Positions 5,270-46,339 of a stretch of 64,000 nucleotides of DNA are shown piece by piece. The position numbers and the translations under genes are program-made. Positions within the stretch are counted from its first letter, which is position 1. Each line of letters starts with the position of its first letter. The stretch comes from Chloroflexi bacterium OLB13. GTDB lineage: Bacteria > Chloroflexota > Anaerolineae > Aggregatilineales > Phototrophicaceae. Location: contig JZRA01000132.1 in the NCBI GenBank assembly GCA_001567485.1, positions 1-64,000 on the forward strand, in the 5' to 3' direction. The notes under the pieces were generated by a model, which was not told the DNA's origin, ran no database searches, and worked only from the letters and a program-made list of their open reading frames with translations.

Positions 5270-6724
5270 CTACTGCCGCCGTGCTTCCAACGCTTCGGCC
5301 AGCAGATCGGTGACGGCCTGCGGATTGCCTTTGCCCTTCAGCGCCGCCATGCACTGACCCATGAGCGCCTTGATGAGCTTGTCCTTGCCGGCCAGATAAC
5401 CCGCCACCATATCGGGGTTCGCGTTCAGCACCGTCTCAATCGTCTCGCGCAGCACGCCCGTATCGCTGACCTGTTCGAGGCCCAGCTGCTTCACGAGCGC
5501 CGACGGCATCTGGCCGGATTCCCACATATGCGAGAGCAGCGTATTGGCGGTGGTGTTGTTGATCGTCCCGGCCTGCACCAGCGCGATCAACTCGGCCAGC
5601 ATCGCCGGTGTGATTCGGATGCGGCCGATCTCGTCATAACCGACGTTGGCCTCGTTCATCGTGCGGAACAGCCCGCCGAGCATCCAGTTGACGGCTTGCT
5701 TCGCGGGCGCGCCTTCCGCCAGCATCGCCTCGAAGAAGTCGGCGATAGCGCGGTCTTCGACCAGCCGGCGCGCCTCGTAGTCGGTGACGCCGTAATCGGC
5801 GGTGTAGCGCACGACCTTCGCGTCGGGCAGCTCAGGCAGATGCGCGCGCACCTCCTCGACCCAGTCGCGGCTGACCTCGATCACCGGGATGTCTGGCTCC
5901 GGGAAATAGCGATATTCGTCGGCGCGTTCCTTATAACGCTGTACGACAATCTTGCCGCCCGCTTCGTCCCAGCCCAGTGTGGCCGGTGTGACCGCGCCGC
6001 CGGACTCATACTGCCGGATTTGCCATGCCACCTCGGCGTCGATGGCGCGTACCATGCTGCGGATGCTGTTGAGGTTCTTGATCTCGCGCCGCGTGCGGAA
6101 GGCGGTGTCGTCTTTGTGCATCACGCTGACGTTGGCCTCGAAACGCAGCACGCCCTTCGACATGTCGCCGTGGTTGACACCGAGGTACTGCAGAAGCGCG
6201 CGCAGCTTGCGTGAATACGCTTCGGCCTCGGCGCTGCTGAAGATGTCCGGCTCGGAGACGATCTCCAACAGCGGCACGCCGGCCCGGTTGTAATCGACGA
6301 GGCTCGATCCATCGCCCTCGTGGGTGAGCTTGCCGGTGTCCTCTTCCAGATGCGCGCGGCGAACGCGAATCCGCTTGGTCTCGCCATCCAGCGCGATGTC
6401 GATATAACCATTGACGGCCAATGGCCGGTCGTACTGGCTGATCTGAAAGCCCTTCGGCAGATCGGGATAGAAGTAGCTCTTGCGGGCGAACTGGTTGACC
6501 GGCGGAATCTCGCAGTTGAGCGCCAAGCCCACCATCATCGCGTATTCGACCGCCTGCATGTTGACGACCGGCAGCGTGCCGGGCAGCCCAAGCGACAGCG
6601 GATCGACGGCGGTGTTGGGCGCGGCCTCGACGCTGTCGACCACCGGGCAGGGGCTAAACATCTTGCTCTCGGTGAGCAGTTCGGCATGCACTTCCAAGCC
6701 GATGATCGTTTTCCAATCCGACAT
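5270..6724 (-). CDS. gatB: Aspartyl/glutamyl-tRNA(Asn/Gln) amidotransferase subunit B
   Basis: The tRNA-binding kinase subunit of GatCAB, which makes Gln-tRNA(Gln) and Asn-tRNA(Asn) by amidating misacylated tRNA. The 484 aa product begins MSDWKTIIGLEVHAELLT and shows the family blocks KSYFYPDLPKGFQISQYD, RIRVRRAHLEEDTGKLTH, DYNRAGVPLLEIVSEPD and the C-terminal Yqey-like tail domain ending in ALEARRQ. The start at 6724 matches the conserved N-terminus; the frame extension to 6841 runs through a terminator hairpin and the preceding gene. gatA and gatC are not adjacent. Confidence 0.96.
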   Translation of the reverse strand: MSDWKTIIGLEVHAELLTESKMFSPCPVVDSVEAAPNTAVDPLSLGLPGTLPVVNMQAVEYAMMVGLALNCEIPPVNQFARKSYFYPDLPKGFQISQYDRPLAVNGYIDIALDGETKRIRVRRAHLEEDTGKLTHEGDGSSLVDYNRAGVPLLEIVSEPDIFSSAEAEAYSRKLRALLQYLGVNHGDMSKGVLRFEANVSVMHKDDTAFRTRREIKNLNSIRSMVRAIDAEVAWQIRQYESGGAVTPATLGWDEAGGKIVVQRYKERADEYRYFPEPDIPVIEVSRDWVEEVRAHLPELPDAKVVRYTADYGVTDYEARRLVEDRAIADFFEAMLAEGAPAKQAVNWMLGGLFRTMNEANVGYDEIGRIRITPAMLAELIALVQAGTINNTTANTLLSHMWESGQMPSALVKQLGLEQVSDTGVLRETIETVLNANPDMVAGYLAGKDKLIKALMGQCMAALKGKGNPQAVTDLLAEALEARRQ

Positions 6725-6742
6725 TCGAGAGTCCTGTTCATT

Positions 6743-6767
6743 AAAAGGCGCGGCCAGTGACCGCGCC
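6743..6767 (-). terminator. Intrinsic terminator of the LysM/lamin-tail gene
   Basis: GGCGCGG and CCGCGCC (6747-6753, 6761-6767) form a perfect 7-bp stem with a 7-base loop; on the minus strand it is followed by TTTT (6746-6743). It separates the LysM gene from gatB, which is transcribed in the same direction. Confidence 0.7.
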
Positions 6768-6788
6768 ATTATACCGCGCTTATCGTGG

Positions 6789-7781
6789 CTAGTCCCCGCT
6801 AATGCGCAGGGTGGCCTGCACCGCGCCGGTCGCATCCTCAAGCGTGATCACGTCGCCGGGATCGCCCCACACCGGGCGGGTGAGGTTCCAATAGCGACGC
6901 AGCGGGGTGTTCTCGCCGACCTGTGTCCACACTTCGAGCAGGCCGTCGTTGAAGAGGCGCGTCTCAGGGAAAGTGTACACGTTGCCGTCGAGGTCGCGAA
7001 GCGTCCAGCCCGTCAGGTTGACCGTCGCGCCGCGGTTGATGATGACCAGATGCTCGCTGGTGATGTCTCCCGCGCCCAGCACCTCGTCGACCTCGACCTG
7101 TGCGTTCTCGGCGGTCGGGGCGAGCGTGACGGTGGGCGTCAGAGTCGGCTCCGGCGTCACACCGGGCGCCAGTGTCGCCGTTGCGCCGGCCGTGCTGTCG
7201 TTCGCGCCGCCCGGAACCGGAGTCGTCCCAAGCAGGGCGCACCCCTCAAGCGGGACGATGAGCGTTTCCCCGATCTGGAGGAAGCGTGCATCGTCCTCGG
7301 TGAGGCCGTTGACCTCGAGGATCGAGAACACGTTGGTATCGTAGAATTCTGCGAGTCGGCCCGGGCTTTCGCCTTCAGCCAAGACATGCAGAATGCACCC
7401 GGCCGGCAGCGCGTTGATCGTAGCTTGCGCGTTGGGGTCGCCGGCGAGGGCCGGATTGATCGTCGGCGCTTCGGTGGGGGCCGCCTGCGCCGACTCGGTT
7501 GATCCGGGCGCAGCGACGACGGGCGTGTTGAGCGGGTCAAGCACGCCGGTCGGGATCGAGGCGATGGTGCCCGGTTCTGGCGTGGCTGTGATGATCCGCA
7601 CAACGGGCGTGGTGTTCGGGTCTGGAGAGGCCGTGATGATAAGCAGCACCGTGGCGAACCCCGCCGGTGATTCGCTGGTCTCAGCCGGCGCCGACCCCAG
7701 CATGCTCACGACGACGAACGCTACCCCGGCCGTGATCAGGACGTTCAGCACGACGAAGATGAAGAAGCCGCGGGCGCGCAT
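6789..7781 (-). CDS. Membrane-anchored LysM and lamin-tail domain protein
   Basis: A 330 aa protein with one N-terminal membrane segment (about 5-28) and a short basic N-tip, suggesting a signal anchor. A Thr/Pro/Ala-rich linker (30-125) leads to a LysM-like peptidoglycan-binding domain (about 127-178, from AGCILHVLAEGESPGRLAE to GETLIVPLEGC), flanked by Cys129 and Cys181, which could pair. A second PT-rich linker (185-225) leads to a C-terminal lamin-tail beta-sandwich (about 227-328), recognised by VIINRGATVNLTGWTLRD. It lies directly downstream of ftsZ but is separated from it by a strong hairpin. Likely a wall-associated envelope protein; partner unknown. Confidence 0.82.
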   Translation of the reverse strand: MRARGFFIFVVLNVLITAGVAFVVVSMLGSAPAETSESPAGFATVLLIITASPDPNTTPVVRIITATPEPGTIASIPTGVLDPLNTPVVAAPGSTESAQAAPTEAPTINPALAGDPNAQATINALPAGCILHVLAEGESPGRLAEFYDTNVFSILEVNGLTEDDARFLQIGETLIVPLEGCALLGTTPVPGGANDSTAGATATLAPGVTPEPTLTPTVTLAPTAENAQVEVDEVLGAGDITSEHLVIINRGATVNLTGWTLRDLDGNVYTFPETRLFNDGLLEVWTQVGENTPLRRYWNLTRPVWGDPGDVITLEDATGAVQATLRISGD

Positions 7782-7806
7782 GGGTTACCCTCCAGTGCTG
7801 TGACCA

Positions 7807-7845
7807 AAGCGGGGCGCATCAACGTGTGTTCGATGCGCCCCGCTT
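7807..7845 (-). terminator. Strong hairpin after ftsZ
   Basis: AAGCGGGGCGCATC (7807-7820) is perfectly complementary to GATGCGCCCCGCTT (7832-7845), a 14-bp stem with an 11-base loop. The minus-strand U-tract is weak (CTTTGG), so it may attenuate or protect the 3' end rather than fully terminate. Confidence 0.6.
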
Positions 7846-7868
7846 GATGTCTCGAACAAGCCGGTCGA

Positions 7869-9107
7869 TTAGTCGCTGTTGTTGCGCTTGCGGCGCAAGA
7901 ACGCCGGAATCTCGGTGCTTTCGGGATCGCGCGAGCTGTCCAACGGCTGCATCGGGCGCTGTGGCGGCTGAGGCGCAGGTGTGGGGGCTGGCGTCTGCTG
8001 GCGCGGAGCCTGCGGCTGAACCGGAACGGGCTGCTGCGACCGAGGCGCTGGATACGGCTGCTGTGGTGTCGGCGCGTAGTTGGCGGCGGGCTGTTGGCGC
8101 GCCGGTTGGAAGCTGGCTGCGCTGGCGTCTCCGGCGCGGCGGGTCGAACGCGCCTGCTCGAAGCCGGTCGCGATGACCGTGATGCGCACTTCGTCGCCCA
8201 AGTTCTCGTCGATGCGAGCGCCGAAGATGAGGTGGACATCCGGGTGCGCGCTCTCGCGGACGATTGCCGCGGCTTCGTTGACCTCGGTCAGGCTGAGGCT
8301 CGGGCCGCCGGTGATGTTGAACAGGATGCCGCGCGCGCCGTCGATCGTGACGTCGAGCAGGCCGTTGTGGATCGCCTGCCGCGCCGCGTTGATCGCCCGG
8401 TCGTCGCCCGTGCCGTGGCCGACCGCCATCAACGCCGCGCCGCCTTCGCTCATGATCGTGCGGACGTCGGCGAAGTCGAGGTTAATCAGCGACGGGACGG
8501 TAATCAGCTCGGAGATACCCTGAATGCCCTGCCGCAGTACATCGTCGGCGAGGCTGAAGGCTTGCTGAAGCGTCGCGTTCTTATGGGCGATGCTGAGCAG
8601 GCGGTCGTTAGGGATGACGATCAGCGTGTCGACCTTGCCCTTGAGTGACTCGATGCCCTGCTCAGCGAAATCCGTGCGGCGCTTGCCCTCGAAGGTGAAC
8701 GGGCGGGTGACGACGCCGATGGTCAACGCGCCGAGTTCCTTGGCGATCCCGGCGACGACCGGGGCGGCCCCGGTGCCGGTGCCACCGCCCATGCCGGCGG
8801 CGATGAATACCATGTCCGCGCCGCGTAAGACCTCGAAGAGGTCGTCTTGGCTCTCTTCGGCGGCTTTCTGGCCGATTTCCGGCATGCCGCCCGCGCCCAG
8901 ACCACGGGTGGTCTTGTCGCCGATGCGGACGCGCGTATTGGCTTTGCTGTTGTTGAGTGCTTGGTTGTCGGTGTTGATCGTAATAAATTCTACGCCGGCG
9001 AGGCCTTCCATAATCATTCGGTTGACAGCGTTACCACCGCCGCCGCCGATGCCGACCACCTTGATCTGGGCAAACCCTTCACGCATCGTATCGGAGTAGT
9101 CCATCAT
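7869..9107 (-). CDS. ftsZ: Cell division GTPase FtsZ
   Basis: Tubulin homologue that polymerises into the Z ring. The 412 aa protein has the tubulin signature GGGTGTG (about 107-113), the T7 synergy loop NLDFAD (about 209-214) needed for GTP hydrolysis across the interface, and a C-terminal peptide [14 protein letters not shown] matching the FtsA-binding tail IPxFLRRK. A Gln/Pro-rich variable linker (about 330-395) joins core and tail. Two ATG codons (9107, 9104) are possible; the purine-rich GGGGGCGGGAT upstream serves either. It is preceded by ftsA and ftsQ on the same strand but has a 375-base leader with its own promoter candidate. Confidence 0.97.
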
Positions 9108-19060: not shown

Positions 19061-19170
19061 GTAAGCCGGTGTTCGTAAGTCGAGAGATTCGGTCTCCCAT
19101 CTTGCAGCGTTAGTCGAGCTATACGATGCGGCGTTTTCTCATCACTTATCACGTTCAACTTCGCGCATAG
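19061..19170 (+). repeat. Dispersed intergenic element, copy 1
   Basis: About 110 bases, from GTAAGCCGGTGTTCGTAAGT to TTCAACTTCGCGCATAG. The central 60 bases match copies 3 and 4 almost perfectly. The rest of the 18925-19320 gap holds the array upstream and a TATAAT (19274-19279) that probably serves rsgA. Confidence 0.9.
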
Positions 19171-31223: not shown

Positions 31224-31326
31224 GTGTGTACGCCGTGTCTAAAAATGAGAAATTGAACGTGGCGCGTGATGGGTAATGAGAAAGCGTCAGCCCTTTTCAC
31301 TCGTATCGCGCCGCAAGTCGGATCGT

Positions 31327-31436
31327 CTAAGCCCGTGTTCGTAAGACGAGAGATTCGGTCGCCCATCTTGCACCGTTAGTCGAGCTATACGGCGCGGGTT
31401 GTTCTCATCACTCATCACTTTCAACTTTGTGCTCAG
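31327..31436 (+). repeat. Dispersed intergenic element, copy 2 (most diverged)
   Basis: CTAAGCCCGTGTTCGTAAGA to TTTGTGCTCAG, 110 bases. Several substitutions against copies 3 and 4, including one in the right end (GCTCAG for GCTTAG). An inverted remnant of the tail (gaacgtggcgcgtgatggg, then taatgagaaagcg) lies upstream at about 31255-31288. Confidence 0.85.
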
Positions 31437-31461
31437 CCCGCTGGCCTTCGACAACCTACGC

Positions 31462-42892: not shown

Positions 42893-42915
42893 TGGGCGAG
42901 CCGCCGGCTCGCCCA
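42893..42915 (+). terminator. Hairpin after the aldo/keto reductase gene
   Basis: TGGGCGAGCC (42893-42902) pairs perfectly with GGCTCGCCCA (42906-42915) around a 3-base loop. No strong U-tract. It follows an AACCACAGAGG-type low-complexity stretch (42838-42888). Confidence 0.6.
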
Positions 42916-42923
42916 TTAGTGAT

Positions 42924-43040
42924 CTAAGCCGGTGTTCGTAAGTCGAGAGATTCGGTCTCCCATCTTGCAGCGTTAGTCAAGCTATACGACGCGGCGTTTT
43001 CTCATCACTCATCACTCAACACTTTCAACTTCGCGCTTAG
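42924..43040 (+). repeat. Dispersed intergenic element, copy 3
   Basis: CTAAGCCGGTGTTCGTAAGT to CTTCGCGCTTAG, 117 bases, with matching ends CTAAGC and GCTTAG. Differs from copy 4 at only two positions. Confidence 0.93.
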
Positions 43041-43256
43041 CGTACGTGTCTGCCGCGGATACCTCCAAAATGTATGATCCATTGTTCTTCTGAAGGATGC
43101 CGTGTGTTTGTCTCCTTCATCCAGTACTACTATGCATTTTGCTTGAATACTCCTATTTGACGAGCAGGATCAGGGTGCTGGTATGAGTTCCGTAATGCGC
43201 TGAACTTCAGTGCGACCGGCCAAGCTGTGTGGATCTAATGCTTAACGCACCCCATT
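43041..43256. other. Unassigned intergenic stretch
   Basis: Lower GC than its surroundings, no ORF with RBS on either strand, and no hairpin I could pair. It leads into the CRP-type site upstream of the Pat-like gene, so it may hold long upstream regulatory DNA. Confidence 0.4.
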
Positions 43257-43272
43257 TGTGACATCTATCACA
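43257..43272 (+). promoter_or_regulatory. CRP/FNR-family binding site (TGTGA-N6-TCACA)
   Basis: TGTGA (43257-43261), catcta, TCACA (43268-43272) is a perfect match to the CRP core palindrome, with the outer TT/TT also present. TAAAAT at 43307-43312 is a plausible -10 about 45 bases downstream. The target gene begins at 43352. Confidence 0.7.
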
Positions 43273-43351
43273 TTGTTCTCGTTAGCGTCGGCGTGCGAAG
43301 CGTCGGTAAAATAGGGGGGTACTCGGCTGGATATCCAGAGAGGTTCTCCCC

Positions 43352-46090
<2,739 letters not shown>

Positions 46091-46186
46091 GGGGCAGTTG
46101 TCAGGGGTCAGGAGTCAGTTGTCAGGGGGCAGTTGTCAGGAGTCAGTTGTCAGGGGGCAGGGGGCAGTTGGCAGTTGTGAGACGGG
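46091..46186 (+). repeat. Heptanucleotide tandem array (CAGTTGT/CAGGAGT)
   Basis: About twelve units of 7-8 bases such as cagttgt, caggagt and cagggggc. Resembles the STRR-type heptamer arrays of filamentous cyanobacteria. It lies between the Pat-like stop and copy 4 of the dispersed element. Confidence 0.8.
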
Positions 46187-46210
46187 GCTAGTTTTGTGCC
46201 CATGAGTGGA

Positions 46211-46327
46211 CTAAGCCGGTGTTCGTAAGTCGAGAGATTCGGTCTCCCATCTTGCAGCGTTAGTCGAGCTATACGGCGCGGCGTTTTCTCATCACTCATC
46301 ACTCAACACTTTCAACTTCGCGCTTAG
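46211..46327 (+). repeat. Dispersed intergenic element, copy 4
   Basis: CTAAGCCGGTGTTCGTAAGT to CTTCGCGCTTAG, 117 bases. Best-preserved copy, with perfect 6-bp inverted ends and no visible target-site duplication. Confidence 0.93.
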
Positions 46328-46339
46328 CGGCGTGACACC

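Follow-up and report, generated by a model that had tools for sequence, protein, structure and literature searches.

Locus organization and the box upstream of the Pat-like gene

The stretch of DNA analyzed (hereafter the window: positions 1 to 64,000 of the forward strand of contig JZRA01000132.1, Chloroflexi bacterium OLB13, assembly GCA_001567485.1) contains at 43352-46090 (+) a gene for a 912-amino-acid fusion of an ADP-forming acyl-CoA synthetase with a GNAT acetyltransferase, which was assigned by its open reading frame (ORF) as well as by domain and structure matches and shows the domain order of Pat/YfiQ (referred to as the Pat-like gene). It is preceded by TGTGACATCTATCACA (43257-43272, +), an exact pattern match to TGTGA-N6-TCACA and candidate operator of the CRP/FNR type, which is situated in the intergenic gap 80 nucleotides (nt) before the start codon at 43352 and has the N6 centre CATCTA (C after TGTGA, A before TCACA). 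The mismatch-free box ahead of a gene of Pat/YfiQ architecture, as proposed by the initial annotation, was thus borne out. No further exact match occurs in the window, and none of 100 dinucleotide shuffles yielded one; near matches with up to two mismatches were not enriched (12 observed versus 18.97 expected), so that the box does not stand out from a crowd of weak ones.

The promoter context is less well defined: The candidate -10 hexamer that had likewise been proposed was recognized by eye as TAAAAT at 43307-43312 (+), 34 nt after the box, and is weak; the promoter scan revealed no sigma-70-type promoter pair. A candidate ribosome-binding site, GAGAGG at 43338-43343 (+), was also assigned by eye.

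Features of the synthetase/GNAT fusion protein

Domain searches located, in forward orientation, a CoA_binding_2 domain (aa 29-154; 43436-43813), a Succ_CoA_lig domain (aa 170-307; 43859-44272), an ATP-grasp_5 domain (aa 499-720; 44846-45511) and a GNAT acetyltransferase domain (aa 754-896; 45611-46039); a Ligase_CoA_2 domain was matched as well. The best matches in the PDB, the "protein acetyltransferase" entries 9it0 (E 2.5e-155) and 9isq, covered the whole length of the protein and agree, together with the domain order, with the proposed Pat/YfiQ architecture, while the ADP-forming ligase 8wzu was matched over aa 23-708.

According to the alignment, the codon at 44162-44164 (+) specifies His271 within the motif SHTGS, the catalytic histidine of NDP-forming acyl-CoA synthetases that is absent in E. 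coli PatZ, and the codon at 45872-45874 (+) specifies Glu841, which is aligned with the GNAT glutamate of PatZ (DAEF). Among 80 aligned orthologs, His271 and the second histidine motif (THK) were each present in 79 (one gap in either case) and the GNAT glutamate in 75; E. coli PatZ is gapped at the His271 position. A review (PMC8556138, accessible part) describes type I and type II GNATs as having an inactive synthetase portion that is devoid of a catalytic histidine; this trait of Pat/YfiQ (type I GNAT) is not found in the present protein, which keeps SHTGS. Judged by its residues, the enzyme is not a typical Pat, since it retains the catalytic histidine that PatZ lacks, and probably functions as an ADP-forming acyl-CoA synthetase. 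The search of the genome for an acetate kinase gave no match; because of this absence, the enzyme could be the acetate- and ATP-forming step. A literature search on ADP-forming synthetase/GNAT fusions retrieved nothing on point.

Sequence identity of the fusion amounts to about 62-69% among Chloroflexi, Cyanobacteria, Acidobacteria and Verrucomicrobia (loci L119-L198; 83% in the one same-genus record), which is high across phyla and points to either transfer or strong constraint. The gene is flanked by two copies (96% alike) of an interspersed repeat of ~130 nt (42911-43042 and 46198-46329), which recurs in the window at 19062-19170 and 31326-31437 and has more copies in other contigs; short CAGTTGTCAGG/GGGGGCAG units are arrayed at 46081-46185, directly after the stop codon of the Pat-like gene.

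Conservation of the box in orthologous upstream regions

The genus is represented by three genomes: the own genome (G000), G001 (71% complete) and G002. Pat-like protein matches at E <= 1e-100 were present in 81 of the 101 relatives searched, with the GNAT part missing from the match in much of the order outside the own family; the closest orthologs reside in Anaerolineae/Chloroflexi records of metagenome-assembled genomes, in agreement with the Chloroflexota origin that the initial annotation had presumed. The search of G001 revealed no Pat-like gene.

Within 500 nt upstream, a box with at most one mismatch was found at 2 of 30 fetched ortholog loci, namely the exact one of G000 and CGTGACATCTGTCACA in G002, whose Pat-like protein is 83% identical; the orthologs of the 28 other relatives were without it, and the control (the same pattern read backwards) matched once in the 30 loci. 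The outcome was the same for 80 named-genome ortholog loci from Chloroflexi, Cyanobacteria, Acidobacteria and others: Among the 79 with at least 150 nt upstream, the box occurred at one, which is again the same-genus genome, and the reversed control likewise at one. On these grounds, the idea that the box is deeply conserved upstream of Pat-like orthologs was rejected; its presence there is confined to this genus. Outside the genus, the orthologs thus lack the motif, an outcome that the initial annotation had itself named as refuting its proposal. The initial annotation had envisaged a deep or independent link between cAMP and protein acylation; a deep link finds no support, since all 28 other relatives checked are without the box, and an independent one is not supported either. 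Between G000 and G002, the box was the top-scoring shared 16-mer of the upstream regions (14 of 16 positions identical), and the candidate -10 hexamer follows it after 34 nt (TAAAAT) and 24 nt (TACAAT), respectively; this difference of 10 nt corresponds to one helical turn.

These data bear on the view that the box is a chance match without function. Exact sites arise at a low rate from base composition, near matches show no excess in the window, and 28 of the 30 orthologous upstream regions lack the box, all of which would be compatible with chance; against it speak its rank as the best-conserved upstream 16-mer in the same-genus ortholog, the failure of all 100 shuffles to generate it and its intergenic position 80 nt from the start codon. 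A fortuitous match is thus regarded as very improbable.

Genome-wide distribution of the box and the boxed genes

The genome of 4,220,390 bases (148 contigs) contained nine exact boxes versus none for the reversed pattern and, with up to one mismatch allowed, 64 versus 19; over 61 genomes of the family, 484 exact boxes contrasted with 68 reversed matches. The motif is therefore enriched in the genome-wide scan that the initial annotation had suggested (nine exact versus zero reversed). The genes beside the exact sites were judged from ORFs and domain (Pfam) matches, without a gene caller; the names of the hydrolase and murJ were given by eye. Eight of the nine sites are located in gaps before genes or at the end of a gene and one inside a murJ-like gene; by distance, seven (including the Pat-like box) precede the start of a gene by up to about 220 nt, one lies farther away and one is coding.

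Besides the Pat-like box and the site within the murJ-like gene, exact sites were positioned between ccmE-ccmF and a Cache/HAMP histidine kinase with a NarL-type response regulator; 20 nt upstream of nosZ (TIGR04246, above its cut-off); 65 nt upstream of the CRP/FNR gene CRP1, where the site overlaps the end of CRP2; upstream of a P450 gene; 42 nt upstream of an NDH-2-like pyridine nucleotide oxidoreductase (TTGTGATGACTTTCACAA); 218 nt upstream of a gene for a histidine kinase; and after a hydrolase-like gene, 379 nt before a UbiE-type methyltransferase. In all three genomes of the genus, ccmE is preceded by boxes (one exact and one with a single mismatch in G000). A G002 box also precedes a gene with a YrrC-helicase OB fold, and a like gene is boxed in G001. 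From the 55 one-mismatch sites of the own genome, of which 41 were listed, 19 regions were picked by choice; about half of these sites lie inside ORFs, and several precede respiratory-type genes (Rieske, the second ccmE box, a thioredoxin-fold membrane protein and a YtkA-like protein), which in such a self-chosen sample is suggestive only. Respiration is the common theme of the boxed genes within the genus, those that could be named being largely respiratory. A literature search on the CRP/FNR or nosZ regulon of Chloroflexi found nothing on point.

Candidate regulators and their recognition helices

The PF13545 search of the genome gave six matches, comprising three CRP/FNR proteins (CRP1, CRP2 and CRP3) and three DtxR- or GntR-like proteins; PF00027 added a fourth protein with the cyclic-nucleotide-monophosphate (cNMP) fold, which contains neither a helix-turn-helix (HTH) nor the Arg-Ser pair. 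In the alignment to E. coli CRP (from NC_000913), the recognition helices of CRP1-3 read REVVYR, REVVTR and REVVGR compared with RETVGR, so that all three conform to R-E-x-x-x-R; CRP-family proteins with a matching recognition helix, on which the proposed regulation depends, are hence encoded in the genome. The cAMP phosphate-binding Arg82-Ser83 of E. coli CRP is replaced by PY, PA and PY, respectively, the pair being kept in none of the three. Residues R180 and E181 correlate with G3 and A6 of the site in the CRP/FNR family, as stated in the accessible portion of PMC1274295; HcpR1 of Desulfovibrio desulfuricans possesses R, E and R at helix positions 1, 2 and 6 and binds the perfect TGTGA-N6-TCACA (passages of PMC5701242 and PMC1274295), and it is thought to sense NO via heme (PMC5701242, same passages). 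Because HcpR1 binds the same box, TGTGA-N6-TCACA is no proof of cAMP.

CRP3 (L025:4802-5659, contig C48 of G000) is the sole one of the three that was found in both G001 and G002. Its helix reads REVVGR at 29 of 30 loci (REVAGR at the other), and its pocket reads N-P-Y/F at the 29 of 30 loci whose pocket motif matched. Exact boxes averaged 1.87 per megabase (Mb) in the 45 family genomes with CRP3 versus 0.52 in the 14 without it (Mann-Whitney p 9.5e-6, the genomes not being independent; G019 and G021 with weak CRP3 matches were dropped), with 0.23 versus 0.15 per Mb for the reversed pattern. CRP3 is favored as reader of the box because it is present in all three genomes of the genus and because boxes are commoner where it is present.

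CRP1 forms a cluster with nosZ and CRP2 (L020:2965-6584, contig C54 of G000), with exact boxes before both nosZ and CRP1, and was found in 13 of the 61 genomes searched, own included. A box with at most one mismatch occurred near CRP1 at 13 of 13 loci (reversed pattern: 0 of 13), being located within 200 nt upstream of the gene at 11 and within 180 nt after the gene at 11; nosZ follows CRP1 at an identity of at least 65% at 8 of the 13 loci (one locus is too short to tell), i.e. the layout of box, regulator and nosZ recurs in relatives. Together with the helix REVVYR, this would be in line with a reading of the Pat-like box by CRP1 (or CRP2), which would place the gene in a nitrous-oxide/NO regulon of the HcpR or DNR kind. 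CRP1 was, however, not found in G001 or G002, although the Pat-like box is kept in the latter, and no CRP2 was seen among the cNMP-domain proteins of G002. Most CRP1/nosZ boxes also share the centre YTTRRG, from which CATCTA differs; because the N6 centres differ, control of the Pat-like gene in common with nosZ is not supported. CRP1 was accordingly set aside as the less likely reader, and this explanation as a whole is considered unlikely.

Rex, a sensor of the NADH/NAD+ ratio with possibly the same sites, represents another candidate, as a Rex-type protein is encoded in the genome. By the consensus that we assume for Rex, the box TTGTGATGACTTTCACAA of the NDH-2-like gene would be Rex-like, whereas the Pat-like box with its C after TGTGA and A before TCACA would presumably not conform. 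Of the 14 family genomes that lack CRP3 and mostly have few boxes, however, 12 encode a Rex-type domain as well, so that Rex does not explain the boxes and is unlikely as their sole reader. Even though Rex is reported, in a passage of PMC5701242, on sites identical to those of HcpR1, its action on the Pat-like box is given little credence.

Class III cyclases and the question of cAMP

The regulators and cyclases for which the initial annotation had advised a search are both present: Besides the three CRP/FNR proteins, the genome contains two tandem, overlapping class III cyclase genes of GAF-PAS-class III architecture (L028:4611-6503 and 6500-8365; G000:C75:38610-42364). In the first cyclase the second metal-binding Asp is lost (MGT) but the Asn...Arg motif is intact; in the second, DVRGF and MGD are intact and the Arg is lost. 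Both members were recognized at 22 of 25 loci of the pair (own and relatives). Wherever the motif matched, the respective residue is missing without exception, namely the Asp from all 23 first members and the Arg from all 17 second members. The pair looks like an obligate heterodimer arranged like mammalian C1/C2, as far as its residues indicate, and cAMP may be made by these complementary cyclases; nothing comparable emerged from a literature search.

Classical control as in E. coli, with cyclase-derived cAMP and a CRP ortholog on the box inducing a Pat acetyltransferase, could draw on these cyclases as well as on the exact CRP consensus and the CRP-type recognition helices. CRP3 has its closest solved relatives among actinobacterial CRP-type proteins (4cyd, 4byy, 3h3u and others), which we take to be cAMP receptors. 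The E. coli pat gene is induced via cAMP-CRP (PMC8556138, accessible part). These points are opposed by the missing Arg-Ser of the cAMP pocket in CRP1-3 and the N-P-Y/F at 29 CRP3 loci, by the restriction of the box to the genus, by the largely respiratory nature of the nameable boxed genes and by the histidine of the enzyme that is absent from PatZ; moreover, no protein combining a known cAMP pocket with an HTH was found in the genome. The proposed cAMP control of protein acylation is hence not supported by the regulator pockets, by the box, which is not cAMP-specific, or by the enzyme, and the classical scheme is judged quite unlikely.

Proposed role of the box

On balance, it seems somewhat probable that the box is a CRP/FNR-family operator whose reader, likely CRP3, does not depend on cAMP, and that it ties a working synthetase/GNAT enzyme to a respiration-linked regulon. 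A CRP/FNR-family dimer with the R-E-x-x-x-R helix, most likely CRP3, would bind the box and would presumably activate rather than repress the gene, probably without answering to cAMP; its regulon in the genus would comprise the Pat-like gene, ccmEF, the NDH-2-like dehydrogenase as well as nosZ and the regulator associated with it. The enzyme would catalyze the reaction acyl-CoA + ADP + Pi <-> acid + ATP and be able to acylate proteins through its GNAT domain, and the switch would fit acetate/acyl-CoA turnover and protein acylation to the respiratory or redox state.

Several observations weigh against this reading. The CRP3-less genomes derive mostly from two genera (g17 and g19), and the correlation between CRP3 and the boxes is consequently not independent; the actinobacterial structural relatives, the two class III cyclases, the Rex-type protein and the deviation of CATCTA from YTTRRG have been mentioned above. 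The C-terminus of CRP3 in G000 differs from its orthologs after the recognition helix by an apparent frame shift, which may be an assembly error. Autoregulation of CRP3 was rejected, as none of 30 loci showed a box with at most one mismatch at its own gene (scattered sites with two mismatches only).

As a more specific and tentative possibility, CRP3 of a lineage of Anaerolineae, a CRP paralog that has lost the cAMP-binding Arg and kept the CRP box, might sense the respiratory state and have recruited the synthetase/GNAT gene in one genus, so that ATP gain from acyl-CoA and protein acylation would be switched jointly with NADH oxidation and the maturation of cytochrome c. Since the box is kept here with regulators devoid of the cAMP-binding pair, cAMP cannot be read from a textbook CRP box as such; CRP3 and CRP1 probably act as respiratory regulators in Anaerolineae, and their operators can be read from the sequence. 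For annotation it matters that the large "Pat-like" family keeps the catalytic histidine: Its members may be active as acyl-CoA synthetases and not be dedicated to protein acetylation.

Comparison with known systems

The regulon of boxed genes looks, by analogy, like one of the HcpR kind. HcpR1 of D. desulfuricans 27774 is likewise a CRP/FNR-family protein with the helix residues R, E and R and a perfect TGTGA-N6-TCACA operator, and it is autoregulated and linked to respiratory nitrogen-oxide genes (passages of PMC5701242 and PMC1274295). CRP1 resembles it in its box, its likely autoregulatory site and its respiratory neighbor nosZ, i.e. it combines a box at the regulator gene with respiratory targets, while CRP3 has no box at its own gene; unlike HcpR1, CRP1-3 fall below every NCBIfam cut-off, and no connection to hcp/frdX came to light, although no search aimed at hcp was made.

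The control of patZ (yfiQ) by CRP in E. coli is similar in operator type and in the domain order of the target, but here no regulator with Arg-Ser is present, the target keeps its histidine and the box is limited to the genus. With E. coli PatZ and the type I GNATs the enzyme shares the full-length match to 9it0; PatZ, however, lacks the His271 that is conserved in 79 of 80 orthologs (one gap). The ADP-forming acyl-CoA synthetases (8wzu, 4xyl, 2csu) correspond in their CoA-binding, Succ_CoA_lig and ATP-grasp parts and in both histidine motifs, and differ in that the 912-amino-acid protein adds a C-terminal GNAT domain and scores below the NCBIfam cut-offs for named ligases.
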